Assembly: GCA_028709215.1 (NCBI GenBank)
Contig: JAQVXI010000008.1
Coordinates: 1-51,022, forward strand
From: Bacteroidales bacterium
GTDB lineage: Bacteria > Bacteroidota > Bacteroidia > Bacteroidales > UBA1402
DNA length: 51,022 nucleotides
Direction of reading: 5' to 3'
Shown here: one piece after another, positions 26,469-30,115 of the stretch
Layout: every line of letters starts with the position of its first letter
How positions within the stretch are numbered: the stretch's first letter is position 1
Program-made: the position numbers and the translations under genes
Notes under the pieces: model-generated
What the model was told of the DNA's origin: nothing
The model's database searches: none
What the model saw: only the letters and a program-made list of their open reading frames with translations

Positions 26469-29114
26469 TTATTTTCCCCGCAAAATTCGCTTAATATCGT
26501 TGAGCTTGTTCAAGGCCTCCAGTGGAGTCAATCGATCCACATCGACCTTGAGCAGCTCATCGCGTATTTGAGATAAAACGGGATCATCCAATTGGAAAAA
26601 ACTCAATTGCAAACCGGAACGTTCCTCAGCCATTCTTTTTGTTGGTTTGGCCAAACTTCCTTTGCGGTTCTCAGCCTCCATTTGCGCAAGTATCTGATTG
26701 GCTCTGTGAACAATGCTCTGTGGCATACCCGCCATTTTTGCCACATGTATACCAAAACTATGTTCGGTACCACCCCGCTTCAGTTTCCTCAAAAACAAAA
26801 CTTTTCCATCCGCTTCCTGAACAGTCACATGATAATTGCGTATGCGTGAAAAACTCTTTTCCATCTCGTTGAGCTCATGGTAATGCGTTGCAAAAAGCGT
26901 TTTTGCACGTGCTCTGGGGTGCTCGTGAATGTATTCTACAATGGCCCAAGCAATGGAAATCCCGTCGTACGTACTGGTTCCCCTACCCAATTCATCAAAT
27001 AAAACAAGACTTCTGAGTGAAACGTTGTTAAGAATGTCAGCAGCCTCGTTCATCTCAACCATAAACGTAGACTCACCGGCCGAAATATTATCGGAAGCGC
27101 CTACCCGCGTAAATATTTTATCCACACAGCCGATCTCGGCTTTTTGGGCGGGAACAAAACTGCCAATTTGTGCCATCAAAACAATTAACGCAGTCTGACG
27201 CAGCAAGGCTGATTTACCGGCCATATTCGGACCGGTAATGATCATGATTTGCCCATCGTTACTATCCAATCGAACACTGTTTGGAATATACGGTTCACCT
27301 GCCGACAACTGTTGTTCAATGACCGGATGTCTACCTTCTACGATATCCAAGACGTCGTTATCTTTTAGAACCGGACAAACATATTGATTGGAAAAAGCGA
27401 CGTGCGCAAATGAAATCAAACAGTCTAAACTGGCAACTTGTAGGGCATTTTTTTGAATATGAGTGATGTAAGGCATCAAGCTGTCCAATAAATCCTGATA
27501 CATTCGCTGCTCCAAAGCGGATATTTTTTCTTCAGCACCCAAGATCTTTTCTTCATACGTTTTAAGTTCCTGTGTGATGTAGCGTTCGGCATTGACCAAC
27601 GTTTGCTTGCGAATCCAATCTTCCGGTACCTTATCCTTTTGAGAGTTACGCACTTCAATATAATAGCCAAACACGCTATTGAAACTTATTTTTAGGTTAC
27701 TTATACCGGTACGATTGGTTTCACGTTGCACAATGCTCTCTAAGTAGGCTTTTCCTGAAGTAGATAAAGCACGTAATTCGTCCAATTCTATGTTGATACC
27801 GGATCGAAACACTTCCCCACGATTGAGTGCCAAAGGCGGTTGATCCACAATTTCACGTTCAATTCGATCACTGATTGCCGTACAAGCGTCCATGCGATGA
27901 ATCAATTCCAGTAAAGCAGGGTAACCCGAATGTGTTCCTTCCAACTGGGAAAAATCATCGATTACAAGATGAATGATGCGTTCAATGGCTTTGAGGGAAT
28001 TCTTTAAATATACAACATCACGCGGTCCGATTCGTCCTACAGAAATTTTGGAAACAATGCGCTCCAGATCCCCTATTTGACTCAATTGCGTTCCAATGGC
28101 ATCAATCCAATCCACTTGCTTATAAAACAAATCCACGACTTGCTGCCGTTTCTCAATCGCTTCTACTTGTTTCAGAGGAAACAAAATCCATCGTCGCAAC
28201 AAGCGAGCACCCATTGCACTCTTGGTTCGATCCAAGACATTCAACAAACTGACACCTCCCTCTTGCATGGTATTACACAATTCCAAACTTCGAATGGTAT
28301 ACCGATCCAATCGAACGTATTTTTCCTCGTCAATTCGAGAAACATTCTGAATATGTGCTAATTGCAAATGTTCAGTCAAATCCATATAGTACAATACACT
28401 GCCCGAAGCAATGACTGCTGCAGGTAGATTGTGTATTCCAAAACCTTTTAAGTTGCTGGTTTGAAATTGTTTTAACAAACGTTTTTGCGCAGCATCCTCC
28501 GTATAGACCCAATCATCCAATTCGAAATGTGCTCCGGACCATTGAAAGATTTCAGATACTTGAGCACGTTTGTTACGCTCATACAACAATTCCTTCGGTG
28601 CAAAAGAAGCCAATAATTTACCAATATACTCAAATGGACCTTGTGCAGTATAAAATTCTCCGGTAGATAAATCCAAAAAGGCAACACCGGCCACTTGCTT
28701 TTCGATGTGCAAACCGGCCACAAAATTGTTTTCTTTTTGATTCAATACATGCTCATTGGTAGAAACACCGGGAGTAACCAACTCGGTAATTCCTCGCTTG
28801 ACCAACTTTTTGGTCATTTTTGGGTCTTCCAATTGATCACATATGGCTACCCGTTTTCCGGCACGAACCAAACGAGGTAAAAAATTATCCAAAGCATGGT
28901 GCGGAAATCCAGCCATTTCGATGGGTCCGGAAGCACCGTTGGATTTTTTTGTAAGCGCAATACTCAGTATATTTACAATGAGGATCGCATCCGACCCATA
29001 AGCTTCGTAAAAATCACCTACTCGAAACAACAAGACGGCATCCGGATGCTTGCTTTTCATTTCCAGATATTGTCGAATCAACGGTGTATCTTCTGATGTA
29101 ATCTTTTTTGCCAA
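26469..29114 (-). CDS. mutS: DNA mismatch repair protein MutS (TTG start)
   Basis: Mismatch-recognition ATPase. The mismatch-binding Phe-x-Glu is FYE at residues 35-37 (RVGDFYE), and the ATPase has Walker [26 protein letters not shown] and [11 protein letters not shown]. No ATG is available near the expected N-terminus. The TTG at 29114 gives [20 protein letters not shown], the right length (881 residues) and register, and lies 22 bases downstream of a -7 element. Longer frames from another TTG read into non-coding origin-like DNA. The gene is transcribed away from the putative origin. Confidence 0.95.
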
Positions 29115-29136
29115 AACTCTACAATTTGTGTGTTGA

Positions 29137-29144
29137 CAAAGATA
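29137..29144 (-). promoter_or_regulatory. -7 promoter element for mutS
   Basis: TATCTTTG on the minus strand matches TAnnTTTG and lies 22 bases before the TTG start, supporting that start. No -33 TTG at the right distance. It overlaps the first weak DnaA-box-like sequence (29131-29139). Confidence 0.45.
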
Positions 29145-29553
29145 AAAAAGACGGTTGATAACTTGTGTACAACCCTTGATAACTTTTGAAAACTTTGTCT
29201 TGCACCGTTCAAAGATTTCCTTGTATAACAAAGCTTTCGACGTAAACAAAAATACTTTCAATTACTTGTCGTAAAAAATCACACCATGATTGAGCAAGTT
29301 GTCAACAATGATCCAAAATGAAAATCATCAACAGCCCGTTATCAACACATCACTTCAAATTCTAGTTTAAACGCTGACTATCTAGTAATTACATTGTGTA
29401 TAAACTGTTGATAACATCCTTATAAGTACCAAAAAAAAGTGCATAACTTTTCCATTCGATGCCAACCGAAAAATTATCAACCGTATCAACACTCTATTAT
29501 TATCCTCATTTAACTTTTTAAAAAATTAAATAATGAAGAATAAGAATGGTTGA
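29145..29553. other. oriC: Candidate chromosomal replication origin (oriC)
   Basis: Gene-free, AT-rich stretch holding a cluster of sequences close to the DnaA box TTATCCACA. One-mismatch copies are TTATCAACA (29339-29347) and its reverse complement TGTTGATAA (29406-29414). Two-mismatch copies are at 29153-29161 (reverse), 29299-29307, 29325-29333, 29474-29482 and 29483-29491 (the last two directly adjacent). A weaker one is at 29174-29182. A block made almost only of A and T follows (about 29491-29545), a possible unwinding element. The + strand changes from C-rich to G-rich around here in sampled counts, and a parS-like site lies 12 kb away. No dnaA gene is visible in the window. Confidence 0.65.
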
Positions 29554-30096
29554 TTACAACTGTAGAAGAGATCGAAGCTCGTTAAAAAAATGCCAGATTA
29601 CAATGCCACCGGCTACCGATACGTTCAGCGAATGTTTGGTACCAAACTGAGGAATTTCAAGGCATGCGTCACAGGCATCTACAACCGATTGTTGAACTCC
29701 TTTTACTTCATTACCCAAAACAAGTGCGTATTTTTGATGGGCTACACAACGATGCATTTCCAGCGAAATACTTCCGTGAGCCTGCTCAATGGCAAAAACT
29801 TTGTAGCTTTCAGATTTTAAAGTATTTACCACATCGATTGCTTCTTTTTCATACTGCCAGCTAACGGAGTATTCAGCACCCAAAGCAGTTTTATGAATTT
29901 CAGGATGAGGAGGTGTACATGAAAGACCGCATAGGTAGATGCGTTCAACTCGAAAAGCATCCGAACTTCGGAAGATGGAACCGATGTTGTGTAAGCTTCG
30001 TATATTATCCAAAATAAGAACCAAAGGAATTTTATCGGTTTGTTTAAAGTCTTCAGGGCTCAGACGTTGCATTTCCGGAATGGTCAGTTTCTTCAT
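29554..30096 (-). CDS. TrmH/SpoU-family RNA 2'-O-methyltransferase
   Basis: A 180-residue SPOUT methyltransferase that transfers methyl groups from SAM to a ribose 2'-OH in tRNA or rRNA. The three family blocks are present: LDNIRSLHNIGSIFRSSDAF, the YALVLGNEVKGVQQ strand-turn and IPQFGTKHSLNVSVAGGI. These form the trefoil-knot cofactor site. It lacks an N-terminal RNA-binding extension. I chose MKKLTIPEM as start; an ATG two codons upstream is possible. The exact RNA target is unknown. Transcription runs toward the putative origin. Confidence 0.9.
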   Translation of the reverse strand: MKKLTIPEMQRLSPEDFKQTDKIPLVLILDNIRSLHNIGSIFRSSDAFRVERIYLCGLSCTPPHPEIHKTALGAEYSVSWQYEKEAIDVVNTLKSESYKVFAIEQAHGSISLEMHRCVAHQKYALVLGNEVKGVQQSVVDACDACLEIPQFGTKHSLNVSVAGGIVIWHFFNELRSLLQL

Positions 30097-30115
30097 ATTC
30101 ATCCAATTTAACACA

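Follow-up and report, generated by a model that had tools for sequence, protein, structure and literature searches.

The gap between mutS and a trmH-family gene in the window, i.e., the 51,022-bp stretch of DNA analyzed here, is predicted to be the chromosomal replication origin (oriC) of a Bacteroidales bacterium, with a probability of about 0.9. It contains a cluster of DnaA boxes at a switch in GC skew, and its core is conserved and accompanied by a mirrored DnaA box in relatives. An origin at this position had been suggested in an earlier note, and the skew minimum at the gap and the conservation of the box cluster and core support this reading. More tentatively, and with slightly less than an even chance of being correct, these sequences suggest that Bacteroidales origins consist of two face-to-face DnaA unwinding modules on opposite strands around an AT-rich center of ~50 bp, with which DnaA alone would set up both helicases symmetrically. 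That DnaA binds and melts this DNA, that helicases are loaded from both sides, and that replication actually starts here is what we infer from these features.

The window is contig C70 of the 80-contig, 2.63-Mb genome of an uncultured Bacteroidales bacterium. Its MutS is ~65% similar to the best-matching group among named genomes, i.e., Bacteroidales. The locus is organized as follows:

26469-29116, minus strand: mutS, flanking gene, true start at ~29116; Pfam MutS I-V
29118-29556, no strand: predicted oriC, consisting of DnaA-box array and AT-rich unwinding core; based on box count and GC-skew minimum at 29881
29554-30114, minus strand: trmH-family (SpoU) methylase gene, flanking gene; Pfam PF00588
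30163-31107, plus strand: nadA, Pfam PF02445; usual right-hand neighbor of the core in other Bacteroidales families

The mechanically called mutS open reading frame extends to a TTG at 29261 (26469-29261). The resulting N-terminal extension of ~48 codons reaches into the origin region, and homologs do not align there. Since the alignment of homologs begins near residue 36-58, the true start is at ~29116. Thus, the gene-free stretch reported earlier at 29145-29553 exists, but its real limits are ~29118-29553, and the box cluster begins slightly to the left of the start given then. A search of the window against Rfam matched no family.

If any sequence that deviates from TTATCAACA or TTATCCACA by no more than one base is counted as a box-like site, the 436-bp gap contains 10 of them, whereas 0.57 would be expected on average; two are exact copies of TTATCAACA, and the other eight deviate by no more than one base. 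A DnaA-box cluster in a non-coding region, one of the marks of an oriC, is therefore found between mutS and trmH. Outside the core, which is described below, the sites are:

29131-29139, minus strand: DnaA box TTGTCAACA, 1 mismatch
29153-29161, minus strand: DnaA box TTATCAACC, 1 mismatch
29299-29307, plus strand: DnaA box TTGTCAACA, 1 mismatch
29325-29333, plus strand: DnaA box TCATCAACA, 1 mismatch
29339-29347, plus strand: DnaA box TTATCAACA, exact local form
29395-29403, minus strand: DnaA box TTATACACA, 1 mismatch to TTATCCACA
29406-29414, minus strand: DnaA box TTATCAACA, exact local form

A further DnaA-box-like site with at most one mismatch is located at 29500 on the plus strand, inside the core. 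The gap has a G+C content of 30.5%, and AT-rich DNA may be rich in such motifs by chance. The probability that chance explains the array is negligible, however, as none of 1000 dinucleotide shuffles, which preserve composition, reached 10 sites, and the spacing is conserved in the family. The two opposed boxes at 29339 and 29406 that had been noticed before are both present and are exact copies of TTATCAACA, and the weaker copies mentioned with them were recovered as the abutting pair at 29474 and 29483 plus six others that deviate by no more than one base. The suspicion that the local DnaA box differs from the textbook form was borne out by the preference for TTATCAACA. In the genome, the exact pattern TTATCMACA occurs 77 times vs. 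39 times for the pattern read backward. The box-reading motif of the organism's own DnaA (P0003, contig C1) is RDHATVLHA, the counterpart of which in Escherichia coli DnaA is RDHTTVLHA. Possibly, RDHATVLHA is linked to the TTATCAACA form of the box.

Along the window, the cumulative GC skew decreases to a minimum at 29881, within 0.4 kb of the gap, and then rises. In a congener (G002), the skew minimum of a contiguous stretch of 400 kb (C6:203496) is located within 0.6 kb of the mutS start at 202925, with trmH at ~203311-203841, and in G003, G006, and G010 it is found 0.15-0.6 kb from the mutS start, on short stretches of 27-80 kb. The skew analysis that had been proposed as a check thus turned out in favor of the gap, with minima that are contig-scale rather than chromosomal because the genome is fragmented. 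Against the origin reading, G004, G005, and G011 have their local minimum in a flat stretch at a distance of 13-27 kb.

Location next to dnaA is a common, but not a defining, trait of origins; here, dnaA is found on contig C1. The true origin could be at dnaA, where oriC is located in many phyla, or at one of the other box pairs, which are present on contigs C44, C73, C36, and C3. The chance of this is very slim: the skew of the dnaA contig is uniformly negative across 57 kb without any switch, and the rival pairs reach at most three sites in 300 bp. In the own-genome sequence examined, no 300-bp segment outside the gap contains more than three box-like sites. Because of the uniform skew of its contig, dnaA was rejected as the origin site. 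Its absence near the gap had been considered not unusual, consistent with an account according to which oriC is commonly distant from dnaA in Bacteroidetes (PMC4755523). Contig C9 of G002 shows negative to near-zero skew at ~300-720 kb whilst being positive otherwise. This second minus-to-plus switch, which likewise weighs against the origin reading, could stem from an inverted or misassembled segment or belong to the terminus arrangement; the other contigs of G002 were examined by sampling only.

The core of the gap (29474-29511) consists of two abutting boxes, 2 bp, and CTATTATTAT, which is the layout of the known BUS, i.e., DnaA boxes with DnaA-trios:

29474-29491, plus strand: left core, abutting DnaA boxes TTATCAACC and GTATCAACA; gapless conserved family block, matching the order-wide pattern with 1 mismatch
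29494-29511, plus strand: left run of DnaA-trio-like sequence, CTATTATTATCCTCATTT, with 3'-GAT AAT AAT-5' on the bottom strand beside the boxes, according to the profile of PMC8287927
29512-29527, no strand: AT-rich center, probable first melting site as judged from its sequence

The BUS is known from Bacillus subtilis oriC, and of the DoriC origins searched, 85% were predicted to have one; its profile comprises a tandem box pair and 10-13 bp from the better box to the trios, with GAT first (PMC8287927). The core resembles it in its tandem DnaA boxes, short spacer, 3'-GAT-5'-type trios, and ~11 bp between upstream box and trios (PMC8287927). A BUS has a DnaA box, commonly in tandem, within 16 bp of the trios, and this distance is 11 bp from the upstream box here. 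It also has at least three 3'-NAN-5' trios with GAT nearest the box, and the core contains this minimum number, 3'-GAT AAT AAT-5' from 29494. As three trios are easily found in AT-rich DNA, the conservation of the core constitutes stronger support than the trio count. Both core boxes in the window match TTATCAACA equally well (one mismatch each), and in most relatives the upstream box equals or surpasses the other. An AT-rich unwinding element is located beside the boxes: the segment at 29491-29545, previously described as AT-only, is in reality ~80% A+T and includes a single run of pure AT, near 29515-29534. The core fits the published BUS profile, and strand separation by DnaA is predicted here.

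In the mutS upstream regions of nine genomes of the family, the core is found as one gapless block, [TTATCAACA][NTATCAACA]NN-CTATTAT(T/C)AT, with variation (29474-29505 in the window); the core and boxes of G002 are weak. A 27-base core pattern was detected with at most three mismatches in 37 of 295 Bacteroidales genomes, vs. ~10 matches for a reversed control, and the best matches are located ~80-165 bp upstream of nadA in many of the Bacteroidales families examined. The comparison with relatives thus revealed conservation of the box cluster and core in the family and beyond. Within the family, only the genus of the window has trmH and nadA on the right-hand side of the core, this place being taken by other genes in the other genera. 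In G005, the core adjoins mutS, and nadA, located elsewhere, is devoid of boxes. The changing neighbors of a constant core argue for assigning the box array to the origin rather than to the regulation of mutS or nadA. DnaA can act as a transcription factor, and the gap is upstream of mutS; hence, the boxes might be regulatory sites of the mutS promoter without any origin. This explanation is most unlikely, as the mutS upstream regions are box-poor in most other Bacteroidales families, whilst the core recurs beside nadA, and as the GC skew switches at the gap. The core form, its link to nadA, and the mirrored box go beyond the earlier note, in which the abutting boxes were noticed without the core built from them.

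The right half of the core region appears as a mirror image of the left half:

29528-29547, minus strand: mirrored run of trio-like sequence on the right, reading ATTCTTATTCTTCATTATTT (six NTN triplets) on the minus strand
29548-29556, minus strand: right mirrored DnaA box TAATCAACC, 2 mismatches; overlaps the trmH stop codon

At most loci, an opposite-strand DnaA box is present to the right of the core, followed by a trio-like sequence, in the reading of that strand, that points back at the core. The two mismatches in the mirrored box of the window, like the weak core and boxes of G002, count against this picture. In the family, the best inverted boxes have 16 summed mismatches vs. 23.6 in shuffles (a fraction of 0.0005 being as low), and the right trio-like runs sum to 43 vs. 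20.4 (0 of 2000 shuffles). For 25 loci of the wider order, including L285, which was anchored on a chance match, the summed mismatches are 46 vs. 62 (0 of 1000 shuffles). Among 29 loci, the same flank contains boxes with at most one mismatch in inverted orientation in nine and in direct orientation in none; with at most two mismatches, these numbers are 22 and five. Eight of the nine inverted boxes are located 46-53 bp beyond the core, and the ninth at 61. In a table of 27 representatives, in which L302 and L309 were mis-anchored and L285 was again placed on its chance match, 10 inverted vs. 0 direct boxes were counted at offsets of 52-64 from the start of CTATTAT. The real matches of L302 and L309 were recovered in a search for the exact pattern, which yielded 27 inverted vs. 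14 direct raw matches; these numbers are too noisy alone, as many matches clearly fall in coding sequence, and support was drawn only from matches in origin context. Across the center, the 27 representatives turn from pyrimidine-rich to purine-rich, as two facing trio runs would give. In these comparisons, related genomes do not count as independent, the loci had been found by their left core, and the flank test was set up once the family alignment had been inspected.

Alternatively, the oriC may contain a single, ordinary BUS, in which case the mirrored box would be an additional binding site for DnaA and the right half, rich in A, would mainly be the leader of the downstream gene. This possibility, which has a nearly even chance of being right, is favored by the better conservation of the left core, by the lack of a good right box in several families, and by the position of this box inside the first nadA codons in some others (such as f118, f30, f44, and f22). 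It does not readily explain the ratio of nine inverted to zero direct boxes at a narrow distance, also in families where the inverted box is intergenic (it is so in f1, f20, f29, f31, and f54), or the right trio-like runs in excess of shuffles. The mirrored core is a probable new variant, with an inverted box that is apparently undescribed.

In a BUS, a DnaA filament starts from the boxes, forms on one trio strand, and stretches it, whereby the duplex opens. At the predicted origin, DnaA, encoded elsewhere, would bind the box array and, starting from the tandem boxes at 29474-29491, oligomerize into the trio-like sequence (29494-29511), following one of its strands. The left module would open rightwards, as in the BUS, and melt the AT-rich center, whilst the mirrored box and trio-like run (29528-29556) probably open leftwards on the other strand. 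As the mirrored module would act from the other side, each strand would have its own DnaA filament, and each filament in the single bubble could recruit a helicase. We know of no two facing trio modules around one short AT-rich center in the oriC of Helicobacter pylori. This bipartite origin is similar in having two DnaA-box clusters and trio motifs, as far as the accessible part of its description goes (PMC8235120). In B. subtilis, trios are described on one strand, whereas here a second box with a trio-like run faces the first across ~50 bp. The DnaD recognition element opposite the DnaA-trios of B. subtilis likewise concerns how a second helicase comes to be loaded onto the opposite strand; there, DnaD reads this strand, whereas here DnaA itself could do so via the second facing module (PMC10201434).

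Origins that coincide with a skew switch at a distance from dnaA are already known in kind in Bacteroidetes: the accessible part of the account of the predicted oriC of Prevotella intermedia OMA14 describes multiple DnaA boxes, a GC-skew switch, and a large distance to dnaA, but does not mention the core, the nadA neighbor, or the mirrored box (PMC4755523). Searches of the literature outside DoriC and most subscription journals brought up neither an oriC linked to nadA nor mirrored trios; both may have been noticed before. How two helicases are loaded, one per strand, at bacterial origins has been described as unclear (PMC10201434). The layout of facing halves could explain the loading of two copying machines in opposite directions, and a mirrored module, if indeed conserved in this major gut order, would offer a simple, testable answer. 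The core with its usual nadA neighbor would also provide a sequence signature for Bacteroidales origins, where dnaA is no guide, and estimates of replication rates from metagenomes depend on the position of the origin.

In family f109 (L230, L231, L288-L290), the box-like sequences TGTAGATA and TGTGGATA are located in conserved N-terminal nadA codons, where coding constraint and origin function may overlap. In a different lineage, the 430 bp preceding mutS on a contig of a Prevotellaceae metagenome-assembled genome (L064, CAMJFC010000056.1) include four exact copies of TTATCCACA plus two near matches, at the edge of the contig.
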